Shown here: positions 427 through 34,904 of the stretch, one piece after another | Layout: every line of letters starts with the position of its first letter | Position numbering within the stretch: the first letter of the stretch is position 1 | IMG/VR virus record: IMGVR_UViG_3300033571_016909 | Span: 1 to 35,614 of that record | Strand: one strand, 5' to 3' | Length of the DNA: 35,614 nucleotides | Origin: a virus | Translations under genes and position numbers: made by a program | Notes under the pieces: generated by a model | Databases searched by the model: none | What the model saw: only the letters and a program-made list of their open reading frames with translations | What the model was told of the DNA's origin: nothing

Positions 427-1004
427 GCTTTAGCTAGATCCTTGAGATACTCGTGGGTGTATGAAGTAACGGCAGGTGAAGGAGTCGCTTGAACTGAAGG
501 AAGTACTGTATTATCCTTAGCAAGCGATCTTTCAGTATCCATATAAGCTCCGGTACCTCTATCTGTCTTATTAGCTACATTATCCATCTTTTCTAGCTCC
601 TCAGGCTTAATATTTACCTTATTCTTGCGTACTACTTCATCAGGAATCGGAGGTAGGTTAGGGTAGATATCAAGCGGCTGACCCATCTCAGGTGAGATGT
701 TAATATAATTTGTATATCTACCACCGCCTGTATCAAGGGCTAGTGTGAGCTCAACATCGCTAGATGATGTTTGTGGATTCCCCGGATATCTAGGAGAAGT
801 AGTATCTTTGATACCCACAACTCTAACATTAAGACCTGTTTCGATCATTTGATCGATCATATCTTTAACGTTTTGCCCTAATTTTTTGTAACAGTCAAGA
901 GTCTTAAAATTATCGTTAAATTTAAAAACATCACCAACGAGGAATCCACCGCGTTGAAATCTACTAAGGTATGCCTCTACCAGTGTAAGATACTTTTTAG
1001 CCAT
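423..1004 (-). CDS. Conserved T4-like phage protein, probable virion component
   Basis: A 193-residue protein beginning MAKKYLTLVEAYLSRFQRGG. A longer reading from the ATG at 1025 is possible. I prefer 1004 because a perfect TATAAATA box ends 5 nt before it, the same spacing as at the other late genes, and because the 1025 codon lies inside the divergent promoter. It has no signal peptide or membrane segment. The C-terminal third is Pro/Thr/Ser-rich and looks flexible. I recall similar proteins (N-terminal ...GDVFKF..., middle GGGRY..., then KVNIKPE) as conserved hypotheticals in marine T4-like phages, but know no function. The late-type promoter argues for a structural or morphogenesis role. 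Confidence 0.7.
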   Translation of the reverse strand: MAKKYLTLVEAYLSRFQRGGFLVGDVFKFNDNFKTLDCYKKLGQNVKDMIDQMIETGLNVRVVGIKDTTSPRYPGNPQTSSSDVELTLALDTGGGRYTNYINISPEMGQPLDIYPNLPPIPDEVVRKNKVNIKPEELEKMDNVANKTDRGTGAYMDTERSLAKDNTVLPSVQATPSPAVTSYTHEYLKDLAKA

Positions 1005-1009
1005 ACTAT

Positions 1010-1017
1010 TATTTATA
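1010..1017 (-). promoter_or_regulatory. T4-type late promoter box TATAAATA
   Basis: Perfect TATAAATA on the minus strand, ending 5 nt (atagt) before the ATG at 1004. It decides the start of that gene. Confidence 0.8.
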
Positions 1018-1022
1018 CCGAA

Positions 1023-1030
1023 CATAAATA
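1023..1030 (+). promoter_or_regulatory. T4-type late promoter box CATAAATA
   Basis: CATAAATA ends 5 nt (attat) before the ATG at 1036. It is divergent from, and only 5 bp away from, the minus-strand box at 1010-1017. Confidence 0.8.
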
Positions 1031-1035
1031 ATTAT

Positions 1036-1305
1036 ATGGAATTTGATTTGTTAGTTGAAGAAATTCTTTTAGAAAAGTCTGCTAGATGCACCAAGGTAAC
1101 AGGCCAGCAATCATCTACTAGATCAGATAAAAAATACATGAGATGTGTAAAAACAAAGACTGGCTATAAGCGAGTGCATTATGGCGATCCTAATCTTAGG
1201 ATTAAAAAATCTAATCCAAAACGCCGCAAATCATTTAGAGCTCGACACAAATGCTCTACCGCAAAGCCGGGAACGGCTAGATATTTTTCATGTAAAAACT
1301 GGTAA
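1036..1305 (+). CDS. Small basic Cys-containing protein with N-terminal capsid-targeting-like motif
   Basis: An 89-residue, strongly basic protein. Residues 2-13 (EFDLLVEEILLE) form an acidic amphipathic segment ending in LLE, a match to the (I/L)xE consensus of the T4 gp21 prohead protease. The rest is rich in Lys/Arg with Cys at about residues 18, 37, 73 and 86, and ends RARHKCSTAKPG...RYFSCKNW. That tail recurs, as I recall, in marine phages and some large DNA viruses. It is the first gene of a late operon that runs into gp25 and gp6. I infer a packaged DNA-binding or head-internal protein whose N terminus is removed on maturation. Function is not established. Confidence 0.75.
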   Translation: MEFDLLVEEILLEKSARCTKVTGQQSSTRSDKKYMRCVKTKTGYKRVHYGDPNLRIKKSNPKRRKSFRARHKCSTAKPGTARYFSCKNW

Positions 1306-1306
1306 T

Positions 1307-1549: not shown

Positions 1550-1550
1550 T

Positions 1551-1727
1551 ATGAACGAGTTTAATAATATGTATAAATTAATTTTAGAGAAATATACTAA
1601 AAGACGTAAGTCATCTCTAAGAAAGAAGTGCCAATCCAAAGCTAAGGCTAAATATGATGTATGGCCTAGTGCCTATGCGTCTGGATATGTACAAAAGTGT
1701 GTAAAGCGTAAAGGAAAGATAAAATAA
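1551..1727 (+). CDS. Very small basic protein with capsid-targeting-like N terminus
   Basis: 58 residues, too short for most gene-length cut-offs. Start follows the upstream stop as TAATATG and the gene ends with the same TAATATG into the next one, so it is embedded in a coupled series. Residues 3-13 (EFNNMYKLILE) form an amphipathic helix ending in ILE, matching (I/L)xE. After it come a basic stretch (KRRKSSLRKK) and a motif YDVWPSAYASGYVQKC, which I recall from other marine viruses including large eukaryotic ones. Its composition and position suggest a head-internal, DNA-binding protein. Function is not known. Confidence 0.7.
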   Translation: MNEFNNMYKLILEKYTKRRKSSLRKKCQSKAKAKYDVWPSAYASGYVQKCVKRKGKIK

Positions 1728-1728
1728 T

Positions 1729-1896
1729 ATGCCCTATATACGAAAAGGTAAATGCGTTTATAGAAGAGATACTGGTAAAAAGGTAGGCTGTTCTAATAGC
1801 GTGTCTAGAGCTAAAAAATACCTCAAGAAACTTTATATGGTAGAGAGCAACTTCAATAAAACCTTTAACCTAATAATCGAGCGTTATGGCAATTAA
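1729..1896 (+). CDS. Very small basic protein with C-terminal (I/L)xE motif
   Basis: 55 residues beginning MPYIRKGKCVYRRDTGKKVG. The first 35 residues are basic with two Cys. The last 15 (residues 41-55) read NFNKTFNLIIERYGN and contain an F-x-x-x-F-x-x-I-I-E pattern like the N-terminal motifs of the two related genes upstream, but here at the C terminus. It starts one base after the upstream stop and its last 11 bases overlap the start of gp25 (ATGGCAATTAA), so it is translationally coupled on both sides. Likely another packaged basic protein. The tag position is an inference worth testing. Confidence 0.65.
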   Translation: MPYIRKGKCVYRRDTGKKVGCSNSVSRAKKYLKKLYMVESNFNKTFNLIIERYGN

Positions 1897-2371
1897 ATTA
1901 AACGTAATTAAACCTACCACAGCGGTCGAAACTGCATTGCAGCAGGGGTATCTATATAAAGATATAGATTTTGATTTACAATACGGTTATAGTACTAATA
2001 AACAACTGTACTCTAATAGAGAAAAGAAAGACTTAGCAGCTTTATACGATGTCAATTCAGTTATAAACTCTTTAAAGAATATTCTCACCACATCACCAGG
2101 CGAAAAGCTATTAAATCCTGAATTTGGACTCGACTTGAGAGACTATTTATTTGAATCGGTAACGGAGACCAAGGGATACTTTATTGGTGAAGAAATATTT
2201 ACTGGCTTACCTCTTCAGGAGGAAAGAATAGAAATTAATTACATTGAAGTAATAGTTAATGCTGAAGAGCAGGAATATACTATTAACTTAGATATAGGCA
2301 TACCATCTCTAAATATACCTAGTATAACATTGAATGGTGTATTAAATAATGATGGATACGTCTTTGTATAA
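1886..2371 (+). CDS. 25: Baseplate wedge protein gp25 (gpW/gp25 family)
   Basis: 161 residues, compared with about 132 in T4. The central segment around residues 52-90 (YDVNSVINSLKNILTTSPGE, then LLNPEFGLDLRDYLFE) is the signature of the gpW/gp25 family. In T4, gp25 joins the gp6 ring of the baseplate wedge and helps nucleate the sheath. The N-terminal 45 residues are longer than in T4. It overlaps the preceding small gene by 11 bases. The gp6 start (TAATG) overlaps its stop by one base, the usual 25-6 adjacency of T4-like phages. Confidence 0.9.
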   Translation: MAIKLNVIKPTTAVETALQQGYLYKDIDFDLQYGYSTNKQLYSNREKKDLAALYDVNSVINSLKNILTTSPGEKLLNPEFGLDLRDYLFESVTETKGYFIGEEIFTGLPLQEERIEINYIEVIVNAEEQEYTINLDIGIPSLNIPSITLNGVLNNDGYVFV

Positions 2372-4182
2372 TGAATATTAAAAACTTTACAGAATATAGC
2401 CTACCTAGAGATGCATACACGACCTTTGATGCTACGACATTAAAGGATCTAATTATAGCTCGCTTAGGTGAGAGCGAAGTATTTAGAGATCAAGTATATG
2501 AAGGCTCTAATATTAACGCGTTTATAGATGTGGTAGCTTACATGTATCATGTGCTCTTATTCTATTTAAATACTACTTCCTCCGAATCTACATTTACTAC
2601 AGCATCCTTGTATGAAAACATGAACAAGATTGTTAGTAATATCGGATATAAGCCGGTAGGTAAGCAAACATCTCTAGCAGTAATGTCTTTATCAGGTAAC
2701 GCGTCTATGACAGCAGGCGTCTACACTCTACCAAGATTCTCTTCTATAAACGCCGGAGGACAAACATTTGTAATTACTAGAGATGTTAATTTTGAAAAGA
2801 CTACTACAGGTGCACCGGAAAAATTATTCGTGGATAACAGCTTTGCATATCAGGGAAGTATTACAGAATATCCTACCTATACAGCAACAGGCGAAACCTT
2901 TGAGGTGGTAACTATAGTAGATAATTCACCTATCAGCAATAGTACTACATTTGTTTCAGATAACTCCTTTTCGTTATTCGTATATGACACCGCAACACAG
3001 CTCTGGTCAGAGTGGCAAGAAACTGCTTCTCTATTTTTAGAAGATGGATCAGCAAAGAGATACGAAAAGAGACTTAACGAGAACGGTAATTACGAGTTTA
3101 AATTCGGTAACGATATTAACGGATTAAAGCTTAAAGTTAATGACCGTGTACAAATCTACTACGTAACATCTAACGGTACTAATGGCGTGGTTGGAGCAAA
3201 TTTAATGGCAGGAAATCAATTTTCCTTTTACAACTCTATCACATTTAATTCTATTGCTAGTAACATATACAATAGTTCTGTTACATTACTGCCAATATCG
3301 CAACTACCTAACTTGATAGCAAACAATCCAAATGCATCTTCCCCTATATCTGATGCAGAAACGGTAGATGATATAAGAAAAAATGCTCCTAAGCTATTTG
3401 CTTCCCAGAATAGACTGGTTACAGGAGACGATTATAGAGACTTTGTAGAAAGAAATTACAATATAGTTGTTAAGAGTGTTAGTGTTTTAGATAATACCCA
3501 GTATACGTCTAGATTCTTAAAATATTTCTACACTATAGGGTTGAATAAGCCTAACAACGATACGAGAGTTCTGTTCAATCAGGTTGCATTTTCAAATTCA
3601 ACCTCTTTTAACAATGTCTATTTGTTTTGCGTACCCAAAACAGCAACTATAATTAACGAAACACTTCCCAACTATTTAAATTCAGCTCAAAAGCAACTGA
3701 TTATAAACCAATGTAGTAATAAAAAAGATATAACACATAACGTTGTATGTGTGGATCCAATTTATAAAGCATTTGATATTGGACTACAACAGGTAGGTGA
3801 AGATTCTTGTATAGACTTAAGAGATAAAACAGCTTTAGTTATTAAAAAGTTCAATAACTCTAATATAAGTAACGAAAGAATTACAGATAGAGTTGTTAGT
3901 GCAATAAAGAATTATTTTGATAAAGTTCAATTAGGTCAGATTATAGATTTAGGTGAGCTTAGCAATAATATAAAGAGCTTAGATGGAGTCAAGGACATAG
4001 CAACCAGACGAACAGATAGCAACTTTACAGTACCAAAATTAAATATGGTTTTGTGGAATCCTATATATGAAGAAGATGACGTTGTATTTACTTCACAAAA
4101 TTATACTCTTGAGGCTTTTCAATACGCATTCTTCTACGAAATAAGCAAACTTAGACAGAAAATTATAGTAGAAAATGAGTGA
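2371..4182 (+). CDS. 6: Baseplate wedge protein gp6 (baseplate J-like)
   Basis: 603 residues against about 660 in T4. The segment near residues 325-360 (SDAETVDDIRKNAPKLFASQ followed by RLVTGDDYRDFV) is the hallmark of gp6 and baseplate-J proteins. The C-terminal part holds the expected alpha/beta core with LGQIIDLGELSNNIKSLDGV. In T4, gp6 dimers form the iris-like ring of the baseplate that changes size on sheath contraction. It starts on the gp25 stop codon and overlaps the next gene by 8 bases (ATGAGTGA), so it is part of the late operon from 1023. Confidence 0.9.
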   Translation: MNIKNFTEYSLPRDAYTTFDATTLKDLIIARLGESEVFRDQVYEGSNINAFIDVVAYMYHVLLFYLNTTSSESTFTTASLYENMNKIVSNIGYKPVGKQTSLAVMSLSGNASMTAGVYTLPRFSSINAGGQTFVITRDVNFEKTTTGAPEKLFVDNSFAYQGSITEYPTYTATGETFEVVTIVDNSPISNSTTFVSDNSFSLFVYDTATQLWSEWQETASLFLEDGSAKRYEKRLNENGNYEFKFGNDINGLKLKVNDRVQIYYVTSNGTNGVVGANLMAGNQFSFYNSITFNSIASNIYNSSVTLLPISQLPNLIANNPNASSPISDAETVDDIRKNAPKLFASQNRLVTGDDYRDFVERNYNIVVKSVSVLDNTQYTSRFLKYFYTIGLNKPNNDTRVLFNQVAFSNSTSFNNVYLFCVPKTATIINETLPNYLNSAQKQLIINQCSNKKDITHNVVCVDPIYKAFDIGLQQVGEDSCIDLRDKTALVIKKFNNSNISNERITDRVVSAIKNYFDKVQLGQIIDLGELSNNIKSLDGVKDIATRRTDSNFTVPKLNMVLWNPIYEEDDVVFTSQNYTLEAFQYAFFYEISKLRQKIIVENE

Positions 4183-6393: not shown

Positions 6394-6401
6394 AATAAAT
6401 A
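6394..6401 (+). promoter_or_regulatory. T4-type late promoter box AATAAATA
   Basis: AATAAATA in the 25-bp gap after the 735-residue protein. It ends 6 nt (tatagg) before the ATG at 6408. The AGG touching the ATG is too close to act as a Shine-Dalgarno sequence. Confidence 0.75.
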
Positions 6402-12203: not shown

Positions 12204-12211
12204 TATTTATA
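12204..12211 (-). promoter_or_regulatory. T4-type late promoter box TATAAATA
   Basis: Perfect TATAAATA ending 6 nt (tataat) before the ATG at 12197. It drives the inverted S74 fibre cassette and diverges from the box at 12247-12254. Confidence 0.8.
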
Positions 12212-12246: not shown

Positions 12247-12254
12247 AATAAATA
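12247..12254 (+). promoter_or_regulatory. T4-type late promoter box AATAAATA
   Basis: AATAAATA ending 7 nt before the GTG at 12262. The sequence GCAAATAAATATAT is shared with the box before 6408. Confidence 0.75.
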
Positions 12255-17630: not shown

Positions 17631-17638
17631 TATAAATA
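17631..17638 (+). promoter_or_regulatory. T4-type late promoter box TATAAATA
   Basis: Perfect TATAAATA starting at the base after the upstream stop codon and ending 6 nt (tataca) before the ATG at 17645. Confidence 0.85.
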
Positions 17639-17644: not shown

Positions 17645-18379
17645 ATGGCAGGAACAGCAGCAACAAACTTAGCAAGCGTAAACATAAGTGATACTTATTA
17701 CGGTGTGTTACATGCAGGTGGTCAAAACCTTCCACCTACAGGTCAAGCTCAGATATATGATGGTTACGGAACATTTGCTGCAATAAGAGTAGGAGCAAAC
17801 TGCAATGGTGTAACTATATGCGGTCCTCTTTCTTGTGGATCGGTTTCAGCTAGTAGCTTATCAGTAACTGCAAAACTATCTGCTAGTACACAGTTTGACA
17901 TTTTTAATTTACTAAACGTACTACACCCTGTAGGTTCCGTAATCTTTACTTTCGATAGTGGCAATCCTGGTCTTAGACCAGGATGGTCTGGTACGGGTTG
18001 GTCACAGATAAGCCAAGGAAGATATTTAGGAGGAGTTGGAAGCTCTACCGATACAAATGGAGTATCGAATACATTTATTGCTGGAAATAACTCTGGTAGA
18101 TTTACACAGGATATATCAGTACCCGATCACTATCACGGTACAGGAGCCTTTACCGGAGCTAATAACGATGACTTTGTAGTTATTAATGGTGGTTGGGATG
18201 ATGGTAGGGGTTGGACTAGAGGTCGCTGGATTCCAGGCGAATCTCAAGCCAATAGAACTTTAAATGGAAACAAACAACTTTACGGTGCAATAACTTCATA
18301 CCCAGTAGCAAAATCTTCATACTCTATAGACATTGAACCTCCTGCCTGCGCTCTATATGTATGGCAACGAATCTCATAA
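17645..18379 (+). CDS. Tail fibre/baseplate protein with collar-type C-terminal domain
   Basis: 244 residues. From about residue 94 it follows the short-fibre/gp10-type collar pattern: LHPVGSVIFTFDSGNPG, PGWSGTGWSQISQGRYLGG, then SVPDHYHGTG and a C-terminal PPACALYVWQRIS that matches the PPY...YMWKR ending of the family. The N-terminal 90 residues are a short attachment segment. In T4 this fold occurs in gp10, gp11 and gp12, and binds cell-surface receptors or links fibres to the baseplate. It has its own late promoter. A perfect 10-bp inverted repeat lies inside the coding sequence at 17964-17984. Confidence 0.75.
   Translation: MAGTAATNLASVNISDTYYGVLHAGGQNLPPTGQAQIYDGYGTFAAIRVGANCNGVTICGPLSCGSVSASSLSVTAKLSASTQFDIFNLLNVLHPVGSVIFTFDSGNPGLRPGWSGTGWSQISQGRYLGGVGSSTDTNGVSNTFIAGNNSGRFTQDISVPDHYHGTGAFTGANNDDFVVINGGWDDGRGWTRGRWIPGESQANRTLNGNKQLYGAITSYPVAKSSYSIDIEPPACALYVWQRIS
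17964..17984 (+). repeat. Perfect 10-bp inverted repeat inside collar-protein gene
   Basis: ATCCTGGTCT and AGACCAGGAT flank a single T. As RNA it can fold into an 8-bp stem with a 5-nt loop. It is GC-richer than its surroundings, not followed by a T run, and encodes NPGLRPGW. Confidence 0.5.
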
Positions 18380-18382
18380 ATA
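18375..18382 (+). promoter_or_regulatory. T4-type late promoter box CATAAATA
   Basis: CATAAATA ending 7 nt (aaaatat) before the ATG at 18390. It overlaps the stop codon of the upstream gene. Confidence 0.75.
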
Positions 18383-18389
18383 AAAATAT

Positions 18390-21129: not shown

Positions 21130-21291
21130 ATGAATGAAGTAATAGTAGAAGGATTAGAGCCAAATGACTTTATTATTCTTGAGAAAATTCTCAAAAGCTA
21201 TAAGGTCTCTATTGATAGTGAAGTAACGTTTGCTGATATAATTGACTTACATAGTAAGGTTAAGCAGGTGATAGATTATTTAGAAGAATAA
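21130..21291 (+). CDS. Small acidic hypothetical protein (53 aa)
   Basis: 53 residues beginning MNEVIVEGLEPNDFIILEKI, Glu/Asp/Ile-rich and predicted helical (IIDLHSKVKQVIDYLEE). It starts 3 bases after the fibre stop codon and its stop codon lies inside the late box for the next gene. No known family recognised. The tight packing and lack of frame breaks support it as real. It might be a fibre-assembly helper, a guess from position only. Confidence 0.55.
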   Translation: MNEVIVEGLEPNDFIILEKILKSYKVSIDSEVTFADIIDLHSKVKQVIDYLEE

Positions 21292-21294
21292 ATA
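21287..21294 (+). promoter_or_regulatory. T4-type late promoter box AATAAATA
   Basis: AATAAATA overlapping the upstream stop codon and ending 6 nt (atctat) before the GTG at 21301. It is the main reason for accepting that GTG. Confidence 0.7.
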
Positions 21295-21513: not shown

Positions 21514-21521
21514 GATAAATA
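21514..21521 (+). promoter_or_regulatory. T4-type late promoter box GATAAATA
   Basis: GATAAATA ending 6 nt (tataat) before the ATG at 21528. The ATAAATATATAATATG context is the same as at 12197. Confidence 0.8.
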
Positions 21522-22266: not shown

Positions 22267-22737
22267 ATGCAAATTCTTCCTATTGATGATAGTAATTTAA
22301 TTCCGGAAATAACTACTATTCCGGAAATATTTCAATTACAAGAACCAGTTATTTCTGTACCGCCTAGAGTTGCTAAATTGTTTCCTACTAGATCAGAAGG
22401 GGAGGATAATAGCTTTATTAACATTAATATGATAGGTGGAGGTGCAGTGGGAGTTAATACTATAGGATTACCTGGTTGTGAGAATATAGCTGTACTAGAC
22501 GATCTTTACAATTTTAGTTATAAAGTTAAGATTACAGAAATAGATACCATTTTAACTCGGACTGGTCATTTCACTTATATAGATGGCCTAAATACTTATA
22601 CGTTAAGTTTAGTAGACTTTTCAACAGGGTGGTGTTTAACGGATTATAACGGTCTTACCTACTTTAACAGTAATCAGACACCGCAGGGCTTATTTACCGG
22701 AATTCAAAATTTAAGTGTTATTTATATAAATGAGTGA
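22267..22737 (+). CDS. Hypothetical tail protein (156 aa)
   Basis: 156 residues starting one base after the upstream stop (TAATATG). The N-terminal 45 residues are Pro/Ile/Glu-rich and extended, with a short repeat (IPEITTIPEIF) encoded by two copies of ATTCCGGAAAT. The remainder is beta-type with Cys at about 76 and 126. It overlaps the 906-residue fibre by 8 bases with the same ATGAGTGA junction seen at 4175. It may be an adaptor between the lectin-like protein and the repeat fibre. No family recognised. Confidence 0.55.
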   Translation: MQILPIDDSNLIPEITTIPEIFQLQEPVISVPPRVAKLFPTRSEGEDNSFININMIGGGAVGVNTIGLPGCENIAVLDDLYNFSYKVKITEIDTILTRTGHFTYIDGLNTYTLSLVDFSTGWCLTDYNGLTYFNSNQTPQGLFTGIQNLSVIYINE

Positions 22738-25450
22738 AATTAACTATAATATAGGCCTATGCGGTGAATATAGACTTACTGTTTTAGATAATAAAACTGT
22801 TGTAGGTGACACGGGATGGTGTAAGAATACTATTTTATCTGGAGGCTTGGAGTACCTCTCAACCGGTTCGATTCTTGGAGGGCTGAGCTATGTAGATTTT
22901 GGAACAAGTACCTTACATAGTGGTGAGTATAATCTCTCCGGGGTATTAATACCGAGTATTAATACAGAGCTAATTAATGTCTCAAGTAACAATATTCAAT
23001 ATTACTCTCTCAATAGCAGTACACAGGTTTATTACGCAACATTTAGTACAAAAAACGCTTCTAGTAGAACTGAGACCATAAACGAATTTTGCATAAAGAC
23101 ATCGAATCAGGTTGGATTTTCTAGAACCGTACTACCCACTCCAATAGACGTAAATATTGGTCAAAATATAAACTTTGAATATAGAGTAACAGTAGATTAT
23201 TCTAACGAACATCAGTCTAATATAGAATTCACCACCTATAATGGTAGTAGCTTTTATATACCTGTAACATCTAAATCTTACAATCTACCGAACTTTGATA
23301 ATGATATTGCTAGTGTGGGTAAACTCATTGACTCGTACCCACTCTATTTGTTACAAAATAATGAAGAACTACCAAGTTTTGGTAGTAATTATCCACAGGA
23401 GAGAGTTTATGGTGTAAACGATTCTCAAACCCAGTCAATATTCTACCCATCTGTCGTATACAGCTCATTAGACGCTGCGACAAAAAGCTATACTGTAATT
23501 ACAGAATACAATAATTTATCTGCTCCATTAGATTCTGGTATCTTTAATAACATTAATACAGCTCTTTTAACTTATAAAGATTCAGGATTCTATGCTTCAA
23601 GATTTGGATTTCCTTTAGCTTTATATAACACGTCTCTTTACGCTAATAACACCTCTGTTAATAGTAGTAATTTAATGTCGCTGTACTATAAGTATACTTG
23701 GAGTGAAACTCTTTCTTCTACGTTTACCACGCCTATTACATTTACACTCTCTGCTCCGCAACTAATTGAATGCAATATTAATCAATTTGTTGATTTATAT
23801 CCTAATAGCTTTATCACCTTATATAGTAACAGCTTTACCACCACGACTACTAACGGTAACACTACCAGAATAAGAGTTAATCTACTCGGAACTAATGTAT
23901 TTGAAGCTATAGACTTTAATTATTTTACACCGCAAGTTAATAAGGATGTATTTGAGTTTGGACCTAGTCCCTATAGAGTGGTAGTATATGATAGTAATAG
24001 TGAGGTACTTAGAGATACGGGGTATGTCTTTCCAAACATTAACCAAGAGTGGAACTATAACAACACTTCTACTACATCGTTAAACTACTACAACACCCAG
24101 CTCTTAGCGCTAGCTAATCAAAGTATAACTGGAGCTACCTCTGGAACTACTACTCTAACTAATTTATCAGTATACCCGGGGAGTAACTATATTGATGTTG
24201 TTATTAACTCACCCTTTATAGGAACTTCTTGGGAGCTCATTCTCAATACTATAAGACCAGTAGCGATAGTGGAGCCGATTCCCACTCCACCTGAACCTCC
24301 GGTAATACCGTGCAATGAGATCACAACATCTGGAGGTATGGGTGTAACAGAAGAAATATTAGCACTATCTCCTGAAGGAGGTATAGTAATAATTGACTTT
24401 AATTCGCAAAGCGTACCGGATAAATTAGAGCTAATACATAATGGCACTAAGGTAGCAACTTCAGGAATGACTACGCCAAATAGCGGACCATTCGATAATG
24501 TGTATGGTAGTCCTACCGTGCCGACAGAAGCACAGACTTATGCCGTAGATCAGTTTATAGGAGCTGCTAAGGGAGCTATACCCACAAGAGATGAAGAATT
24601 CTTTATCGAGACTAGTATAACTGACGTAACTAGAGTTTATCAACAGCTAATATGGTGGACTTACACTCCAGAAAACTACACTACCTCCAGTACCTTAACG
24701 GCAAGGGTAACAGGTCCGAGCGGAACCGCTTGGAATTTTGCGAGACGCTGTACCGATCAGATACCGACACCAGCGCCTCCAAGTAGTGAAGTTATTTACG
24801 CAACGTTTAATAACCAAAATAATATTATCACTGATGACGGTACAATCAAACCGTCTGTAATAAAGCCTTCTATCTACGGTTTAAATATTATAAGCGTAGA
24901 TAACGGTACATTTAGATCATCTGTAGTATCGTCTAATTTCTACGGTTTAAATAATATAAGCGTAGATAACGGTACATTTAGATCATCTGTAATATCACCT
25001 AATTTCTACGGTTTAAATAATATAAGCGTAGAAAATGGATCGTTTATTCCATCTGTTATATCATCTGATTTCTACGGATTAAATTACGTAAGCATAGACG
25101 ACGGATCATTTACATCACCCTTGCTGTTACCTAATTTCTATGGACTTAATGATATAAGTATAAATGATGGGTCGTTTATATCGTCTGTAATATCACCTAA
25201 TTTCTATGGACTTAATGATATAAGTATAAATGATGGAGTCTTTAGATCGTCTGTAATATCATCTAATTTCTATGGACTTAATGATATAAGTATAAATGAT
25301 GGAGTCTTTAGATCGTCTGTAATATCACCTAATTTCTATGGACTTAATAATATAAGTATAAATGATGGAATCTTTAGATCGTCTGTAATATCACCTAATT
25401 TCTATGGACTTAATAATATAAGTATAAATGATGGAATCTTTACCCCATAA
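22730..25450 (+). CDS. Large tail fibre with nine C-terminal 22-residue repeats
   Basis: 906 residues. The N terminus (YRLTVLDNKTVVGDTGWCKN, then GGLEYLS) follows a common tail-protein opening. A Pro-rich linker (EPIPTPPEPPVIPC, about 519-532) leads to a beta domain at about 535-680. Residues 708-905 are nine tandem 22-residue repeats of the form SSVISPNFYGLNDISINDGV plus two residues, then a Pro and the stop. The last four copies are nearly identical in DNA, so the array is recently expanded and probably length-variable. Such repeats usually build a beta-helical or beta-roll shaft. Third gene of the operon from 21514. Confidence 0.7.
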   Translation: MSEINYNIGLCGEYRLTVLDNKTVVGDTGWCKNTILSGGLEYLSTGSILGGLSYVDFGTSTLHSGEYNLSGVLIPSINTELINVSSNNIQYYSLNSSTQVYYATFSTKNASSRTETINEFCIKTSNQVGFSRTVLPTPIDVNIGQNINFEYRVTVDYSNEHQSNIEFTTYNGSSFYIPVTSKSYNLPNFDNDIASVGKLIDSYPLYLLQNNEELPSFGSNYPQERVYGVNDSQTQSIFYPSVVYSSLDAATKSYTVITEYNNLSAPLDSGIFNNINTALLTYKDSGFYASRFGFPLALYNTSLYANNTSVNSSNLMSLYYKYTWSETLSSTFTTPITFTLSAPQLIECNINQFVDLYPNSFITLYSNSFTTTTTNGNTTRIRVNLLGTNVFEAIDFNYFTPQVNKDVFEFGPSPYRVVVYDSNSEVLRDTGYVFPNINQEWNYNNTSTTSLNYYNTQLLALANQSITGATSGTTTLTNLSVYPGSNYIDVVINSPFIGTSWELILNTIRPVAIVEPIPTPPEPPVIPCNEITTSGGMGVTEEILALSPEGGIVIIDFNSQSVPDKLELIHNGTKVATSGMTTPNSGPFDNVYGSPTVPTEAQTYAVDQFIGAAKGAIPTRDEEFFIETSITDVTRVYQQLIWWTYTPENYTTSSTLTARVTGPSGTAWNFARRCTDQIPTPAPPSSEVIYATFNNQNNIITDDGTIKPSVIKPSIYGLNIISVDNGTFRSSVVSSNFYGLNNISVDNGTFRSSVISPNFYGLNNISVENGSFIPSVISSDFYGLNYVSIDDGSFTSPLLLPNFYGLNDISINDGSFISSVISPNFYGLNDISINDGVFRSSVISSNFYGLNDISINDGVFRSSVISPNFYGLNNISINDGIFRSSVISPNFYGLNNISINDGIFTP
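24851..25444 (+). repeat. Nine tandem 66-bp repeats in fibre gene
   Basis: Nine in-frame 66-bp units (9 x 66 = 594 bp). Units 1-5 are diverged. Units 6-9 (25181-25444) differ at only a few positions. Each encodes a 22-residue repeat with the core FYGLN and ISINDG. Confidence 0.9.
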
Positions 25451-25502: not shown

Positions 25503-25510
25503 AATAAATA
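25503..25510 (+). promoter_or_regulatory. T4-type late promoter box AATAAATA
   Basis: AATAAATA ending 5 nt (aagat) before the ATG at 25516, in the 65-bp gap after the repeat fibre. The rest of that gap is AT-rich with a run of seven T but no clear stem. Confidence 0.75.
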
Positions 25511-27397: not shown

Positions 27398-27405
27398 TAT
27401 TTATG
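27398..27405 (-). promoter_or_regulatory. T4-type late promoter box CATAAATA
   Basis: Minus-strand CATAAATA ending 6 nt (tttata) before the ATG at 27391. It is back to back with the plus-strand box at 27412-27419. Confidence 0.75.
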
Positions 27406-27411: not shown

Positions 27412-27419
27412 AATAAATA
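27412..27419 (+). promoter_or_regulatory. T4-type late promoter box AATAAATA
   Basis: AATAAATA ending 5 nt (aatgt) before the ATG at 27425. An out-of-frame ATG at 27421 lies closer and is not used by any long frame. Confidence 0.75.
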
Positions 27420-27877: not shown

Positions 27878-27885
27878 ACTAAATA
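27878..27885 (+). promoter_or_regulatory. Degenerate late promoter box ACTAAATA
   Basis: ACTAAATA ending 5 nt (ctagt) before the ATG at 27891. It departs from the consensus at the first two positions but keeps the spacing. Confidence 0.45.
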
Positions 27886-28742: not shown

Positions 28743-29792
28743 TTAATTAGATCTATACTTCTTTATTTCAGCAAGTCTAAAAATTCCTTCGAGTCCTTCG
28801 AAGGAATTTTTTTGTATAAACTCGTGCGTTACCTCATTAATTTTACACGCTATACAAATATCGTTAAAGTCTTTAAACCGCTTACCGAATTTCTCAGGCC
28901 ATATAAACACTTTTTCGCCGTTTTGTAATAATATCTCTGATTTGCTTAGTGATGCATCATCTATCCACTGACTATCTAGTACCCATATTTTATCATACCA
29001 CCTTAGAACAGTATCGACTTGCTGCTGCTGCCTCTTAGTAAATGTGGCTGTACCTTTATCCGTGATGCCAGCTACAGCTACACTATTTTTAGTAAAGAAA
29101 GCATTGAGAGGACCTTCGAAGATAAAAACACTCTTATAGCTGTTATCTATTTTATCTATATTAAATAAGGTCTTCTCAGCACCTATTCTAGATATATACT
29201 TAGGCTTCATTTTATTATCGCCCGGTATAACAGTTCTAGACTGGTAGAACTCAATATCTTTATTTTCATTAATAAAAGGTATAACAAGCCTATTCTTATG
29301 CACTCTATCTACAAGCGATACATATAAAGAATCAGGCTTATTAACAGCTGTGTCTAGTCTTCGTTCTTTAATTAACTTAGCACATGCACCTACTATTGGA
29401 TTATCTTTGTAGAACTTAACTTGAGTTGCATCGCAAAGGTTTATTGAATCTTTAGGAAGTGTCTCAGTCTTTATTTTTACAACCTCTTGTTCTGAGACTT
29501 CTATCGTGTCTTGATCGTCTACATACTGCTTTATTTCTTCAATAATTTCTACATCTGTCTTACCCGATACCTCTTTTATCCATTTTATGGGCTTACTCGA
29601 CCATCCGCAGTTATGACAGAAGATGTTATCATTTTTAGGTATATAGTAACATCTACGCTTCCTACCCAAGGAGCCACCCTCTCTACAAATACAACAACCA
29701 CCTTGATAGGTGCTATTAAATTTATTAAATCTAGGTTGATATATATACTGAAAGAATTTACTCACAGTATATTCCTCTGGAATACTTATCAT
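28743..29792 (-). CDS. 61: DNA primase gp61
   Basis: 349 residues (T4 gp61 is 342). N-terminal zinc-binding region with Cys at 33, 34, 36 and 48 and the pair C59/C62 (FCHNCGW). A TOPRIM-like core follows, with FIFEGPLNAFF (conserved Glu) and WVLDSQWIDDASLS (acidic metal ligands). Gp61 makes RNA primers for Okazaki fragments on the gp41 helicase. It overlaps RNase H by 4 bases and is the last gene of the gp32-led operon. A strong stem-loop lies within its last codons. The phrase FEGLEGIF near the C terminus is encoded by that stem. Confidence 0.9.
   Translation of the reverse strand: MISIPEEYTVSKFFQYIYQPRFNKFNSTYQGGCCICREGGSLGRKRRCYYIPKNDNIFCHNCGWSSKPIKWIKEVSGKTDVEIIEEIKQYVDDQDTIEVSEQEVVKIKTETLPKDSINLCDATQVKFYKDNPIVGACAKLIKERRLDTAVNKPDSLYVSLVDRVHKNRLVIPFINENKDIEFYQSRTVIPGDNKMKPKYISRIGAEKTLFNIDKIDNSYKSVFIFEGPLNAFFTKNSVAVAGITDKGTATFTKRQQQQVDTVLRWYDKIWVLDSQWIDDASLSKSEILLQNGEKVFIWPEKFGKRFKDFNDICIACKINEVTHEFIQKNSFEGLEGIFRLAEIKKYRSN
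28779..28813. terminator. Strong bidirectional stem-loop terminator inside primase 3' end
   Basis: Perfect 12-bp inverted repeat, AAATTCCTTCGA (28781-28792) and TCGAAGGAATTT (28798-28809), with loop GTCCT. It extends to 14 bp with flanking A/T. On the plus strand seven T end the stem; on the minus strand five T do. It should stop plus-strand transcripts from the endonuclease side about 80 nt after that gene's stop. On the minus strand it would cut before the primase stop codon. Confidence 0.8.
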
Positions 29793-30661
29793 GCAAAAAG
29801 AGATTGTAGCTTACCTTTAAGAAAAAACAACGAATACCACGATTCCTTTTTCTTTAGTATAGAGTTAAAATCGCGGAGTTTACACTCTTCTTGAAAATCT
29901 CCCCAATTATTTAATACTTCAACACTAAGCTGGTCTTCGTAATATTTAATTTCATCGAGATTTTTTTCAAACGCGTCTAATCTAAAAAGCGAAAGATTAC
30001 GATCATATATATTTTTTTCCTCTTCTGACATTACAATCTCACCTTTAAGCCACTTAGTAATTTTAGCCTTACCGAATTTAGGAATACCTGCTACGTTATC
30101 AGATCTATCTCCGGTGATGCATTTAACTTGTAGCCACTCCATCGTATCCTTTAAGCCGGTTCGCTCTTCGAAGTTCTTATCTGTATATTCTAACTTACGA
30201 ATAGGGTCATATAAAGTAATATTAGCGTCAACTAGCTGAATAAAATCTTTATCTACAGATACTATTATTTTTTGACCAGTAGTACGCTTACATATATAAG
30301 CTACAATATCATCAGCTTCGAGTTGACGAGGAAAGATAGAAGGAATACCTAAATAACGCAACATTTCTTTTATTGCGTTATTGTTTTGATGCGGTGCAGT
30401 ATCACCGGACCTGTTACTCTTATAGTTTTCGTATTCTGTCTTTCTCTCGTTTACTTGATACTCAGGTTTTTCATCCCATACAAAAATAGTCTTATCAGGA
30501 TTAAATTTTGTAACATAAGAGAATACAGCATTAAGAGTAAAGTAGATATGAAAATTATTAATCTGCTCAGGTGTATTTGTATTAGTTCGTTGCGACTGAG
30601 TCTTCGCTGTCCAATACGTCCGATGTATCAGATTGTTTCCGTCTATGATTAATTTTTTCAT
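29789..30661 (-). CDS. rnh: RNase H / 5'-3' exonuclease (FEN-like)
   Basis: 290 residues (T4 Rnh about 305). The acidic metal-site series of the FEN/PIN family is present: LIIDGNNLIHR at the N terminus, FVWDEKPEY (about 81), EADDIVAY (about 122), IVSVDKDFIQL (about 138) and the helix-hairpin-helix GDRSDNVAGIPKFG (about 193). In T4 this enzyme removes RNA primers and some adjacent DNA from lagging-strand fragments, stimulated by gp32. The start MKKLIIDG is natural for the family. It lies 80 nt inside the 3' end of the preceding gene in another frame. Overlaps the primase by 4 bases. Confidence 0.9.
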   Translation of the reverse strand: MKKLIIDGNNLIHRTYWTAKTQSQRTNTNTPEQINNFHIYFTLNAVFSYVTKFNPDKTIFVWDEKPEYQVNERKTEYENYKSNRSGDTAPHQNNNAIKEMLRYLGIPSIFPRQLEADDIVAYICKRTTGQKIIVSVDKDFIQLVDANITLYDPIRKLEYTDKNFEERTGLKDTMEWLQVKCITGDRSDNVAGIPKFGKAKITKWLKGEIVMSEEEKNIYDRNLSLFRLDAFEKNLDEIKYYEDQLSVEVLNNWGDFQEECKLRDFNSILKKKESWYSLFFLKGKLQSLFA

Positions 30662-30911
30662 TTTTTATGAATTGTGCTGTTGATGTTTTACATACATAGC
30701 TAGGAACTCTTTCTACATATCTAAGTATATTATTGTTCCTTCCGTGATCAAATACAATTTGTGGTATTATTCTGTTCACCAGATTAGGTACTGAGAGAAA
30801 GCAATAATCAACAGTCTCACTTTTAATAAAGATAAGCATTTCACCTGCATACGTACCAGTATGAACTGCATATACGTCACCAGGAATAAGCTTTTTATTA
30901 ACCTTCTTCAT
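30582..30911 (-). CDS. Hypothetical protein (109 aa), 3' end overprinted on rnh
   Basis: 109 residues. The first 75 look like a compact beta-rich fold (KLIPGDVYAVHTGTYAGEML, then DYCFLSVPNLVNRIIP). The last 30 are polar and Asp/Ser-rich (QSDTSDVLDSEDSV) and share 80 nt with the start of rnh in a different frame. The gene starts 14 nt inside the upstream gene. Family unknown; the N-terminal part resembles SH3-like or KOW-like small domains only in composition. Its place among replication genes suggests an accessory replication or regulatory role. Confidence 0.6.
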   Translation of the reverse strand: MKKVNKKLIPGDVYAVHTGTYAGEMLIFIKSETVDYCFLSVPNLVNRIIPQIVFDHGRNNNILRYVERVPSYVCKTSTAQFIKNEKINHRRKQSDTSDVLDSEDSVATN

Positions 30912-31182
30912 ACATTAAATATGACATATATTTTATAGCTAGAGAGGTTAGTGCGTCTCTCTCCATTTGTGTCTTAGCATGTTTTAAAATTAGCGGCTTC
31001 CCGTTAAGGTCGTAACCTATAATTATAAAATTTGTTAAAAACTCTTTTACTGTAGAAGCTAGAGCGCTCTCTAATTGTATTTTTTTATTATACTTTTTTT
31101 TACTCTCTAGATTAGTTTTTAGAGCGTCCTTAATAAGGTCTCTTATATCATCCTCAGAGAACGTTTCATCATCAGGGTTCAT
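30898..31182 (-). CDS. Conserved hypothetical replication-region protein (94 aa)
   Basis: 94 residues from the ATG at 31182, which overlaps the upstream stop (ATGAACCCTGA) like its neighbours. A TTG at 31227 would add 15 residues and seems less likely. Mostly helical and charged (FSEDDIRDLIKDALKTNLES), then FIIIGYDLNGKPLILKHAKT, a strand-turn-strand motif I recall from small conserved proteins of marine T4-like phages. Function unknown. Possible roles near the clamp include a late-transcription co-activator such as gp33, but I see no supporting motif. Confidence 0.6.
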   Translation of the reverse strand: MNPDDETFSEDDIRDLIKDALKTNLESKKKYNKKIQLESALASTVKEFLTNFIIIGYDLNGKPLILKHAKTQMERDALTSLAIKYMSYLMYEEG

Positions 31183-31510
31183 AATTATATTCAGTAGCAC
31201 TATCGAGTTGTGAAACACCTCTTTCAATTAGAGTAGTTACGACAACTTCAATAGATGCTGTTTTAAGAGAAAAGTTTCTCGGAAACAGTCTACCACCATC
31301 ATTAAACTCAAACATTTTTTCGCTCTTAAAGTCTCTATTTTCGTAACATGTAACAAACACCGAAGTATTACCAGGATCGATCATAATTGTCCACTTACGA
31401 GGATCTGATTGCGCGTAATTATTACATATCTTCCATACATTAAAGCCGCTATCTTTTAAGCGTTTAACAAAATATGAAAGGGTAGTGATTTTATTTTTAT
31501 TAATATTCAT
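31172..31510 (-). CDS. Conserved hypothetical replication-region protein (112 aa)
   Basis: 112 residues, ATGA-coupled to the upstream clamp-like gene. It opens MNINKNKITTLSYFVKRLKD, and a beta-rich body follows: WTIMIDPGNTSVFVTCYENR, then MFEFNDGGRLFPRN. I recall close relatives (INKNKITTLSYFVKRLKDSGF..., then FNDGG..FPRN) in many marine T4-like phages, where they are uncharacterised. A conserved neighbour of replication genes, so a replication or late-transcription accessory role is plausible but unproven. Confidence 0.65.
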   Translation of the reverse strand: MNINKNKITTLSYFVKRLKDSGFNVWKICNNYAQSDPRKWTIMIDPGNTSVFVTCYENRDFKSEKMFEFNDGGRLFPRNFSLKTASIEVVVTTLIERGVSQLDSATEYNYEP

Positions 31511-32244
31511 TGTGTGAGTGATGTTATAATATACTTTAATTTAATGTTGTCATTTGAGATATCAATAACGGTTACACCGTATTCAGTATTAATACCAAAA
31601 TTTATTTGATCACTAATAAATGATAGCAATTTAATATTATCAAAATTGAGTGGTAGAGGTGATAGCTCAAAATCTACTTCACCTAAATCTATAGCAAAAA
31701 CATCTGTATTGTGTCTTGCACGATCTGTTAGTTCGCCTTTTAAGTGACCATCCTCAGTATACAAATATAGCTTATTTGTTTCTGTAGCAAACGTGCTTCC
31801 TTTAATAATGGAATTAATAGTCTCCTTTTTAAGAGTAAACTTAATATTATAATTAAAGCTTTTAATTTTTTCAATATTAATAGACGGCTTAGTTAAAAAG
31901 CCATCCTCATATAAATGGTATTTAAACTTAAGAGATTTACCTTTATACTCTATGTTGTTAGAGTTAACTAGTAGTGATATGTCTTTAGTATCTACCGAAT
32001 CAACAACTCTAATTAATTTCTTTATATCGGGTATATTAATACTACCATTATAATTAACCCCTACACCAGACAATTCACTATATAGAATTAATGTATTATC
32101 TGCTGAAGAAACTAAAGATGTAATTAAGCCAGGATCTCCTTCGTGAGCATTTAGTATCGTTGACTCGCTGATCTTTGATACTGCCTCTAGGTACTTGATG
32201 CAGTCAGGCCGGCTTGGTAGCTTTAGTTCTCTTTGTGTTGACAT
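31507..32244 (-). CDS. 45: Probable sliding clamp (gp45-type), divergent
   Basis: 245 residues (T4 gp45 is 228). The sequence is weakly conserved but has the clamp layout of two similar alpha/beta halves. The N-terminal half has LILYSELSGVGVNYNGSINI and the helix DIKKLIRVVDSV. The C-terminal half has FTLKKETINSIIKGSTFAT, LYTEDGHLKGELTDRARHN, then a strand series ending YIITSLTQ. The clamp tethers the polymerase and, in T4, activates late transcription. Position between gp32 and primase supports a replication role, but clamp loader gp44 is at the far end of the window. No long motif is diagnostic, so I rate this as probable. Confidence 0.6.
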   Translation of the reverse strand: MSTQRELKLPSRPDCIKYLEAVSKISESTILNAHEGDPGLITSLVSSADNTLILYSELSGVGVNYNGSINIPDIKKLIRVVDSVDTKDISLLVNSNNIEYKGKSLKFKYHLYEDGFLTKPSINIEKIKSFNYNIKFTLKKETINSIIKGSTFATETNKLYLYTEDGHLKGELTDRARHNTDVFAIDLGEVDFELSPLPLNFDNIKLLSFISDQINFGINTEYGVTVIDISNDNIKLKYIITSLTQ

Positions 32245-32647
32245 TGTATTTTTCGATTGTATCTGCTATTCTCGATAAGTTCAAGTTAATTTCTTTCAAC
32301 ACATCAACAATATTACTATCTACAGGTACAGAAACTGGTTCATGCTTAACTTCAATATGCTGTATCGGAGAAGCCTGCTGCTCAATAGTATGTAGCTCTT
32401 GCATAGCTTGAGCTACCTCTACAGGATGTAATACCTGTGGTTGCTCTGGTACGGGTTGATGATATTGTGGTTGTGAAGCTTGAACAGGCACTCGTAATGC
32501 CTGTTCAAGTTCGCGCTGGATCTGTGGACTAACCGGTTTAACAAACGGTGAGCTACCTACGATCATTTGATCGGTTTGTCTAGCTTGCGCATGCATAGTT
32601 CCGAAGAACTGAACTAATGCATTTTGCTCTTCGGGGGTTATGTTCAT
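32204..32647 (-). CDS. Hypothetical Gln/Pro-rich linker protein downstream of gp32
   Basis: 147 residues. Short helical N terminus (MNITPEEQNALVQFFGTMHA), a Pro/Gln/Val-rich disordered middle (about 50-100, with QPQYHQPVPEQPQVLHPVEV), a helical acidic coiled-coil (VDVLKEINLNLSRIADTIEK) and a basic tail (KRTKATKPA). It overlaps gp32 by 4 bases and the clamp gene by 41 bases. Its architecture (two small helical ends joined by a flexible linker) suits a tether between replisome proteins. Not recognised as gp59 or gp33. A strong stem-loop sits in its coding region. Confidence 0.6.
   Translation of the reverse strand: MNITPEEQNALVQFFGTMHAQARQTDQMIVGSSPFVKPVSPQIQRELEQALRVPVQASQPQYHQPVPEQPQVLHPVEVAQAMQELHTIEQQASPIQHIEVKHEPVSVPVDSNIVDVLKEINLNLSRIADTIEKYNVNTKRTKATKPA
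32479..32509. other. Perfect 12-bp stem-loop inside gene after gp32
   Basis: CTTGAACAGGCA (32479-32490) and TGCCTGTTCAAG (32498-32509) are perfect inverted repeats with a 7-nt loop. No T run follows on either strand, so it looks like an mRNA structure (processing, stability or translational control) and not a terminator. Confidence 0.65.
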
Positions 32648-33489
32648 AGGTCTTTAAGTAATTCCTCAATATCATCTTCAGTTGTACTTTCTGTATATGT
32701 ACTTTCTGGCTTGCTAAATGAAGGAATAGGATCGCTATCGGAAAAGCTGCCCTTACTAGTAACGACCTCTTCACTATGGCTCTTCACGTAGAAATGTTCG
32801 TCAAGCATCTGCTTAAGTTCATCATACGATTTGAGAGTATATACTTTAGTGAGATCAAACACACCATCATAGATCTTTTTCTGTTCATCGTCACTGAGAT
32901 TCAGCTTACCGGCTGACGTAAACCTTGAGGAAACATAAGTAGGATATTCACCCTGATTCTCACATTTAATTTTAAAGTTAACGCCATTAGTACCTAGATC
33001 GAAGATACGAGGACCAAATTCTTCGGCATCCTCACCTTCAATAGCTTCCATAATAATCTTATGTACTTGTTTACCGTAGCGAAGCATCTTAACCTTGCCG
33101 TTATTATCTGGGTTGGTTGGATCATCAATAACATAGACATTGACGAGATACTTTTCGAGCCTCTTGATAGCTTTAACCTTTTCCTTTTCATCCTCTGTAC
33201 CGGTACGAAGAATACGGAATCTTTCTTCTGCAATAGGATCACGCTCGCCGAACGTCATAGGCGAAAGAGATTGTACGTACTGACCGGTTGCAAATGATAC
33301 CCATCCGTGATTAAAATAATGGAAGAATGTATTTTTTGGGTCTTTAGCGAAAGGCAACAATCTAACAGTATAGGTGTTACCTGGAGTTGTTTTTAAGATC
33401 TCAGTATATGTTGCTGGACCGTTTTCATTATCATTTTTAGCTAATGCGTCTTTAATTGATTGGAACATTGATGTATTGAATGTACTCAT
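32644..33489 (-). CDS. 32: Single-stranded DNA-binding protein gp32, lacking the zinc cysteines
   Basis: 281 residues (T4 gp32 is 301). Landmarks align with T4: NHGW (T4 NHGF), then YLVNVYVIDDPTNPDNNGKV (T4 [20 protein letters not shown]) and YGKQVHKIIMEAI, GVNFKIK, and an acidic C terminus ending DDIEELLKDL (T4 DDTDLDDLLNDL) that recruits partner proteins. The T4 zinc module (H64, C77, C87, C90) keeps the His but has no Cys: the region reads SPMTFGERDPIAEERFRI. The only Cys is C174. Gp32 coats ssDNA and organises the replisome. It has a sigma70-like promoter and leads the operon down to primase. Confidence 0.92.
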   Translation of the reverse strand: MSTFNTSMFQSIKDALAKNDNENGPATYTEILKTTPGNTYTVRLLPFAKDPKNTFFHYFNHGWVSFATGQYVQSLSPMTFGERDPIAEERFRILRTGTEDEKEKVKAIKRLEKYLVNVYVIDDPTNPDNNGKVKMLRYGKQVHKIIMEAIEGEDAEEFGPRIFDLGTNGVNFKIKCENQGEYPTYVSSRFTSAGKLNLSDDEQKKIYDGVFDLTKVYTLKSYDELKQMLDEHFYVKSHSEEVVTSKGSFSDSDPIPSFSKPESTYTESTTEDDIEELLKDL

Positions 33490-33511
33490 AATTTTATTTG
33501 TTATATGTTTT

Positions 33512-33539
33512 ATTATAGGCTGGTTATTTTATTTTTCAA
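33512..33539 (-). promoter_or_regulatory. Sigma70-like promoter for the gp32 operon
   Basis: Minus-strand TTGAAA (33539-33534), 16-bp spacer, TATAAT (33517-33512). The expected start is about 16 nt before the gp32 ATG. It overlaps the last codons of the upstream gene. The short leader (catataacaaataaaatt) has no Shine-Dalgarno. An early or middle host-polymerase promoter fits a replication gene. Confidence 0.65.
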
Positions 33540-34175
33540 TAGTTGTTTTTCAATTATCGAAAAAGCTTCACGTATTACTGTTTTTAATCTAACAGAGCGT
33601 TGAAAATTTATTCTTGTATCATTTAGTAGATTTTCAAAGTTCGATATAAAAAAATCTAATAGATCAGGCTCTACTTGTCTGATAGTTTTTTCACACTGCA
33701 GACCATGTAGCGTGTAAAAGTTTATTTTGTGATCTCGTAGATGCTGCAAAACTAGGGGAGTTGTACCGTTAATAATATTTTTATAGTCGTGTAGGGTAAG
33801 ATTATTTTCTTTGCAGTATCTGTATATAAAGCTGCAGCACTCTTTGCAGTTTACAATAGTACCATCATTATCGGGGTCTTGCGTTTCTTTCTTCTTGGCG
33901 TAAAGAGAGTAACATTTTATTGCTCTAGGAGTGATAAAGAAGTGTATATCAAAATAATTATCTGATCCGTAATAATCAAAAGGTGCCGTGAAAAAGTCAA
34001 CCTGCTTTATATTATTATTCTTTTCAAAAAACAATCCTAGCTTTTTAAGTGTTGTGTAAATCTGGTCGTCAATAGCACTAAAATCTTGACGTAGTTTAAA
34101 AGGCTTATTTTTTATAGTTCTGCTCGCAATCAGATATGAGTTGTATATATTCTTTTCTTTATCTGTTAAAGGCAT
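33513..34175 (-). CDS. Conserved hypothetical protein (220 aa) between gp41 and gp32
   Basis: 220 residues beginning MPLTDKEKNIYNSYLIASRT. Helical N terminus, an alpha/beta centre (VDFFTAPFDYYGSDNYFDIH, FFITPRAIKCYSLYAKKKE), a Cys-rich stretch CKECCSFIYRYC (about 109-120), and a helical C terminus. I recall proteins that start like this and contain FFTAP...YFD in marine T4-like phages, close to gp41, without a known role. A helicase loader (gp59-like) would be expected near here and has a similar length (217), but I see no sequence resemblance. It starts 10 bases inside the upstream gene. Confidence 0.65.
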   Translation of the reverse strand: MPLTDKEKNIYNSYLIASRTIKNKPFKLRQDFSAIDDQIYTTLKKLGLFFEKNNNIKQVDFFTAPFDYYGSDNYFDIHFFITPRAIKCYSLYAKKKETQDPDNDGTIVNCKECCSFIYRYCKENNLTLHDYKNIINGTTPLVLQHLRDHKINFYTLHGLQCEKTIRQVEPDLLDFFISNFENLLNDTRINFQRSVRLKTVIREAFSIIEKQLLKNKITSL

Positions 34176-34462
34176 TTTCTCTTACTGTTATTAATGTACT
34201 TTGTTATGTACTTACTCTTCGTTATTGTAGGGTCGTACTCTAAGAAGATTTTAACTATTTCAAAATTAGAATCAACTCCTAAAAGATCTCTTAATATATC
34301 TCTTAGTTTATCGTCTTGAAGTACTAATATAAACACGTTTTGAAAAGATAATTTTTTACCCTTCAAAAGTGTGCAGAAGGAGCAGAAAGATAATAAAATA
34401 TGCTCACTCTCTCTATCAATAATATCTTGAGATGGATTAACTGGTAAGGATTTTACGAACAT
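34166..34462 (-). CDS. Small hypothetical protein (98 aa)
   Basis: 98 residues, helical, Leu/Ile-rich, with CSFC (about 27-30) and a basic C terminus (NNSKRKCL). It starts 10 bases inside the upstream gene and overlaps the next by 10 (ATGCCTTTAA), so the three genes from 34890 form one coupled unit. No family recognised. Confidence 0.55.
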   Translation of the reverse strand: MFVKSLPVNPSQDIIDRESEHILLSFCSFCTLLKGKKLSFQNVFILVLQDDKLRDILRDLLGVDSNFEIVKIFLEYDPTITKSKYITKYINNSKRKCL

Positions 34463-34890
34463 TGTCTAAAAGTTTTTGTAAGGTTAAGAAATTTTTCTGT
34501 TATTTTACCTTCTGCGGTATCTGTAGATGAATTAATACAGTCACCGTCACATAAGAGTTTAGCTAGATTGCACAGGTTAATAGCGCATACGTTGTTATTA
34601 CTCTTAAGAAGTATTTTTTTCTCTGTTAAAACAACTACTATAGCTATAGCAGCGTTAAGTTTATTTAGCATATGTGAAAGAATCTCATCGTAAAAGCCTT
34701 CAGCAAAGCAACTAACTACTCTGTTGTCCTTTAGGTTACCCTCGAAAAATTGTGTACTTTCTAATGCATCTTTATACTTTAGAAGATAGAGCTTTATATC
34801 GTTAAGCTCCTGCACACTAAAATCCTTCTTACCCTTTTTGAAGGATTCAATATTAGCTTTAAGCTTATTATCTATATTAGATGGTTTCAC
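34453..34890 (-). CDS. Hypothetical protein (145 aa) with late-type promoter in replication region
   Basis: 145 residues from a GTG start set by a TATAAATA box 6 nt upstream. N-terminal helices, then a hydrophobic core (LNKLNAAIAIVVVLTEKKIL) and INLCNLAKLLCDGDCINSST...EGKITEKFLNL. The order of strand, SNNNVCAINL and NLAKLLCDGDC faintly recalls DHHA1 nucleic-acid-binding domains, with their GGGH motif replaced; I hold this loosely. First gene of a three-gene unit that ends at 33513, just before gp32. It is the one replication-side gene with a late-type box. Confidence 0.6.
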   Translation of the reverse strand: MKPSNIDNKLKANIESFKKGKKDFSVQELNDIKLYLLKYKDALESTQFFEGNLKDNRVVSCFAEGFYDEILSHMLNKLNAAIAIVVVLTEKKILLKSNNNVCAINLCNLAKLLCDGDCINSSTDTAEGKITEKFLNLTKTFRQCS

Positions 34891-34896
34891 TTTACC

Positions 34897-34904
34897 TATT
34901 TATA
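34897..34904 (-). promoter_or_regulatory. T4-type late promoter box TATAAATA inside a palindrome
   Basis: Perfect TATAAATA ending 6 nt (ggtaaa) before the GTG at 34890. It is flanked by perfect 7-bp arms TTTACCT (34891-34897) and AGGTAAA (34905-34911), which could be an operator or an RNA hairpin. Confidence 0.75.

Follow-up and report, generated by a model that had tools for sequence, protein, structure and literature searches.

The viral record IMGVR_UViG_3300033571_016909, analysed over its whole length of 35,614 nucleotides (nt) and referred to here as the window, carries 14 NATAAATA-type boxes that end 5, 6, or 7 nt upstream of start codons. These boxes are very probably T4-type late promoters positioned for leaderless mRNA in the large uncultured clade of aquatic T4-like phages to which the window is assigned by its gene sequences. 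Phage T4 is the textbook case of replication-coupled late transcription, and phages related to it are regarded as Shine-Dalgarno-led. The arrangement described below is real, conserved, and unusual, and comparison of the sequences strongly predicts leaderless transcription from it. The earlier note on this DNA had proposed late promoters abutting start codons and mRNAs with leaders of ~0-2 nt; strong comparative evidence makes this the best reading, with the leaderless transcripts themselves as its predicted part.

Late boxes in the window

All 14 boxes were located where the earlier note had placed them and in front of the starts it had named, 13 with an exact ATAAATA and one degenerate. An offset of 5 nt was found for CATAAATA at 1023..1030 (ATG 1036; box kept in 5/5 aligned orthologues), AATAAATA at 25503..25510 (ATG 25516; 1/1) and at 27412..27419 (ATG 27425; 10/10), and the degenerate ACTAAATA at 27878..27885 (ATG 27891 of an endonuclease-like gene, for which no orthologue was found for comparison), all on the plus strand, and for TATAAATA at 1010..1017 on the minus strand (ATG 1004; 5/6). 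The offset was 6 nt on the plus strand for AATAAATA at 6394..6401 (ATG 6408; 3/3) and 21287..21294 (GTG 21301; 7/9), TATAAATA at 17631..17638 (ATG 17645; 7/7), and GATAAATA at 21514..21521 (ATG 21528; 4/7), and on the minus strand for TATAAATA at 12204..12211 (ATG 12197 of a tail-fibre gene identified by PHROGs scan; 1/1) and 34897..34904 (GTG 34890; 6/9) and CATAAATA at 27398..27405 (ATG 27391, divergent from 27425; 9/9). The two plus-strand boxes with an offset of 7 nt were AATAAATA at 12247..12254 (GTG 12262; 6/7) and CATAAATA at 18375..18382 (ATG 18390; 1/8). The latter includes the preceding gene's stop codon and is a doubtful promoter that may be accidental, since it was kept in only one of eight orthologues. 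Perfect TATAAATA boxes numbered four (those of 17645, 1004, 12197, and 34890) rather than the five previously counted.

The 7-mer itself was not enriched, as ATAAATA occurred 24 times across the window compared with 29.7 expected. A scan of its distance to start codons, which the earlier note had put forward as a check, revealed ATAAATA at 5-7 nt before 13 of 36 curated starts, compared with 0.036 expected from its density in the window (Poisson P ~3e-29) and 0.09 if its density in the region 12-79 nt upstream of these starts is used instead, such that its position is non-random. Separately, box-like 8-mers recurred every 66 nt between 24880 and 25430 inside the open reading frame 22730-25450, indicating a 22-residue protein repeat.

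Conservation, spacing, and promoter anatomy in the clade

Comparison with relatives showed that the boxes are retained in diverged sequence. Taking all box genes of the window together, a box at 5-7 nt was retained in 65 of the 82 orthologues that aligned at the N-terminus, and the alignments put the beginning of the protein at the abutting start. The tail sheath gene gp18 carried the box exactly 5 nt before its ATG in 29 of 30 distinct sequences and 6 nt before it in the remaining one, and the upstream DNA had diverged around the retained box.

The clade sample consisted of ten related contigs plus contigs of 155 kilobases (kb; G017) and 204 kb (G015). Among 412 ATAAATA boxes in nine contigs, an ATG followed at offsets 5, 6, and 7 in 62, 39, and 16 cases, respectively, compared with 1-11 cases at other offsets up to 24. 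Similar A/T 7-mers displayed no comparable peak, except for a weak offset-5 peak of TTAAATA and the shifted overlap AATAAAT. By called genes, boxes at 5-7 nt reached 14.5-31 per 100 kb in the clade versus 0-0.6 in T4, Syn9, S-CRM01, KVP40, and RM378, which have 0-1 such boxes per genome. G017 and G015 contained 26 and 35 start-abutting boxes, respectively. In T4, KVP40, and the cyanophages Syn9 and S-CRM01, this box is mostly found 21-60 nt ahead of the start, and this direct comparison of spacing ruled out an ordinary T4 or cyanophage layout for the clade.

The late system itself is that of T4, and the NATAAATA form of the box is already known from cyanophages (S-PM2 and Syn9; PMC2984593), with which the clade has a degenerate first box base in common; Syn9 and S-CRM01 differ, since the identical scan found no box 5-7 nt before their starts. 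With T4 late promoters (TATAAATA; gp55, gp33, and gp45; PMC2988020), the predicted promoters of the clade share a TATAAATA-like box of 8 base pairs, the lack of a -35 element, placement at late genes, and the presence of gp55 and gp45 among the encoded proteins. Alignment of 221 clade boxes revealed no -35 signal, a preference for G immediately before the box, and a weak A/T bias near -27. Abutting boxes were found at the late genes gp18, gp21, gp13, gp15, and gp10-like, and no copy of gp43, gp45, gp46, gp47, gp55, or uvsW had an abutting late box; one copy of gp62 with a TTG start does carry a matching box. The gene for the late sigma factor gp55 was identified in nine distinct related contigs, and the window, a fragment, lacks it. 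A gp45-like sliding clamp, the activator of late transcription in T4, was encoded in the window at 31507..32244 on the minus strand (hmmsearch E=3e-7; profile-profile probability 85%), with E-values down to 1e-9 in relatives.

The T4 late box begins at -13 (PMC2988020) and spans -13 to -6, with +1 six nt beyond its last base and about one helical turn from its first. By this numbering, an offset of 5 would put +1 on the start codon, and offsets 5, 6, and 7 would give leaders of 0, 1, and 2 nt. Consistent with this, the base ahead of the start codon was C or T in 134 of the 146 offset-5 genes (92%), compared with 53% at the corresponding position of boxes that no start follows (P=2e-22), as expected of a pyrimidine/purine initiator with +1 on the first nucleotide of the start codon. 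Shine-Dalgarno tetramers, counted at -17 to -4, were at background in the clade (0-14% of genes per contig vs. 0-16% background), including the two long contigs (8% vs. 7% and 4% vs. 3%) and the box genes (4% vs. 5%). Such tetramers are found in 70% of genes in T4, 57% in KVP40, 57% in HTVC008M, and 71% in Melnitz. The clade starts without a box were A-rich upstream. A TA-box ~10-12 nt before the start is an established mark of leaderless bacterial genes (PMC3160421), and the clade has in common with these genes a -10-like element at that distance and no Shine-Dalgarno site. The bacterial genes are cellular and read by host sigma factors, while the clade has two viral promoter classes, one of them phage-specific.

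Early promoters, exceptions, and alternative readings

A second motif, TTGA-N18-TATAAT, was identified from genes without a late box and resembles a sigma70-type early promoter. Of its 59 clade matches, 3, 18, 7, and 4 were followed by an ATG at offsets 5, 6, 7, and 8, respectively; the reference phages had 0-6 matches each and no such peak. The motif lay 6 nt before the GTG of uvsY, which heads a unit extending through uvsW, gp55, gp47, and gp46, in all five distinct contigs with a correctly called start (contig G005 is nearly identical to G001, and the start in G007 was miscalled by the gene caller), and 8 nt before gp43 in 3/3 cases. Such early promoters, ending 6-8 nt before the start, are represented by G001 71653 (uvsY) and G001 65247 (gp43), both on the minus strand, with equivalents in G002, G003, G004, and G006. 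The earlier note had restricted the arrangement to late genes, a restriction that these early promoters remove, and their shared geometry suggests that transcription units generally have their 5' end at the start codon of their first gene. In G015, numerous small paralogues that carry LNGKLHREDGPAVE-type repeats are encoded near both contig ends (194644-203736 and 276-3193), and several of their genes carry a start-adjacent TTGA...TATATT motif.

Nor does the arrangement extend to the whole structural programme, as had been suggested. A conserved leader precedes the major capsid gene gp23, whose box, where present, lies ~64-85 nt before the ATG in most closer relatives and is followed by CCCUGAACAAUGAGG and a hairpin. 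Compensatory changes were found in the hairpin, one pair displaying four pair types and 11 double changes in 18 sequences, and the wider gp23 group has a second hairpin in the leader. The leader lies in the 100 nt upstream of the ATG at L160, L162, L163, L170, L171, L188, and other gp23 loci. In the shortest cases it starts ~5 nt after the box, which provides an internal ruler for +1. An Rfam search of the gp23 leader gave no family that reached gathering strength, and one of the window gave no match. Just upstream of gp23 in G002 (~44901-44935), the length of a T-run differs from that in G006, such that the upstream reading frame is not shared; this is compatible with a leader that is non-coding or with an error in the assembly. 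The offsets of gp20 were 7, 8, 9, and more, and operon-internal genes such as gp6 and gp4 had no box, as was the case for many operon-internal late genes. Leaderless expression is thus neither late-specific nor universal, as gp23 and operon-internal genes differ.

In the proposed mechanism, host RNA polymerase with a phage sigma factor of the gp55 family would read the late boxes, presumably activated by the gp45 clamp, and transcription would begin at the start codon or 1-2 nt before it to yield leaderless mRNAs. The host would have to accept a 5'-terminal AUG or GUG without dependence on Shine-Dalgarno pairing, and gp23 would be the exception with its structured leader. The reading of the boxes by gp55, the positions of the 5' ends, and the mode of translation of the mRNAs are what we infer here.

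Several observations weigh against late promoters placed for leaderless mRNA. Of the two homologues that the earlier note had named as a check, gp55 was recovered as described and gp33 was not detected, a further difference from T4; gp33 is short and fast-diverging and gave no significant profile match in the clade. Offsets 6 and 7 had no pyrimidine bias at -1, such that the leaders at these offsets may be 0, 1, or 2 nt. The distance from box to +1 is borrowed from T4, and the positions of the 5' ends are predictions. In addition, 17 of the 82 aligned orthologues lacked a box at 5-7 nt. Finally, Flavobacterium psychrophilum, which is without Shine-Dalgarno sites, has only 5.5% leaderless mRNAs (PMC9723704).

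Among the alternatives, it is unlikely that the boxes are late promoters from which initiation occurs further downstream or the 5' end is processed, leaving the AUG unused as first codon, or that upstream read-through supplies most of the message. Many box genes do closely follow another gene, 73 of 182 in the clade lying <=40 nt after a same-strand gene, and in the window a same-strand gene ends 10-25 nt ahead of 6408, 17645, 18390, and 21528. The statement in the earlier note that operon-internal genes carry no box was therefore not upheld, and mRNAs that read through from upstream, with long leaders, must be made as well. This alternative is opposed by the orthologue N-termini, which fall at the abutting start codon, and by the conservation of spacing and initiator base to the nucleotide.

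Somewhat less probable still is that the box is not a promoter and acts as an A/T-rich translation-initiation element, as in bacteria without Shine-Dalgarno sites. This would agree with the missing Shine-Dalgarno enrichment, the A-rich DNA before non-box starts, the closeness of the 73 box genes to a preceding gene, and the 16 of 182 box genes that are separated by 8 nt from the stop of a same-strand gene before them, so that this stop codon falls inside the box (e.g., window 18375-18390). However, the motif is exactly the T4 late promoter and is absent from the copies of gp43, gp45, gp46, gp47, gp55, and uvsW, the hairpin leader separates the gp23 box from its start codon, and for 54 of the 182 box genes a divergently oriented partner begins <=90 nt away, with each side having its own start. 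Moreover, a different motif, the sigma70-type -35/-10 pair, stands at an equal distance before early genes; that two unrelated motifs share this distance argues that the feature being positioned is the site where transcription begins rather than an element of translation.

Boxes arising near starts by chance in A/T-rich DNA, a reading favored by the lack of over-representation of the 7-mer in the window and by the unconserved 18390 box, are scarcely credible and were ruled out by density and conservation in the comparative data, as 13 were seen against 0.04-0.09 expected, diverged orthologues conserve them, other A/T-rich T4-like phages lack the arrangement, and other A/T 7-mers have no comparable peak at 5-7 nt.

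Kinship of the clade and implications

PHROGs and profile searches of the window identified the clamp loader gp44, gp25, gp6, tail-fibre genes, primase, RNase H, gp32, and gp41. The baseplate wedge genes gp25 and gp6 (1886..4182, plus strand) point to T4-like kinship and lack an abutting box. A replication block on the minus strand (28743..35614, with an open end) includes primase, an RNase H-type exonuclease, gp45, gp32, and the DnaB-type helicase gp41; Pfam and PHROGs gave no name to the majority of the small genes that lie between gp41 and RNase H. The 35.6 kb record is probably a fragment of a virus genome, since gp44 and gp41 are broken at its ends. T4-like core genes found in the window or its relatives were gp4, 6, 13, 15, 17, 18, 19, 20, 21, 23, 25, 32, 41, and 43-47, together with gp55, uvsW, and uvsY.

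Matches to isolates were remote, with gp32 at <=39% identity over part of its length and the helicase at ~30-38%. By sequence, the clade appears to fit no nameable cultured group among the Straboviridae and Kyanoviridae relatives compared, because the gp23 of a relative is only ~33% identical to the best isolates among the matches listed, which were cyanophages. IMG/VR contained 33 relatives by gp32 and at least 597 by gp23. No relative was found when GTDB genomes were searched with gp32 and gp23 alignments, and tRNAs gave no host identification. A Bacteroidota host, prompted by the missing Shine-Dalgarno sites and the literature on Far-T4 phages (PMC7198788), was not adopted because the Bacteroidetes TAnnTTTG promoter was not enriched upstream of clade non-box units and the early promoters are sigma70-like.

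A full-text literature search, with subscription papers not covered, yielded no description of T4-like phages in which leaderless promoters are used systematically. A cultured case is the Pelagibacter phage HTVC008M (NC_020484), in which about ten late boxes have their ends 5-7 nt before starts, nine of them at exactly 5 (start codons at 6280, 7562, 19456, 31132, 49760, 75559, 117049, and 142360 on the plus strand and 16007 and 18916 on the minus strand). HTVC008M differs from the clade in that abutting boxes are a minority of its boxes and Shine-Dalgarno tetramers precede more than half of its genes, as given above.

On balance, it is likely that this widespread and uncultured lineage has abandoned leaders for most transcription units in both promoter classes and has kept a structured leader chiefly for gp23. 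If true, the mode of translation could be changed wholesale by shifting the promoter by a few tens of bases with the transcription machinery unchanged, and the abutting promoters would mark true start codons for gene finding in the clade. The arrangement would also predict a property of the host ribosomes, namely translation of 5'-terminal AUG and GUG starts at high efficiency. The cultured HTVC008M offers a laboratory approach to the predicted leaderless late genes.

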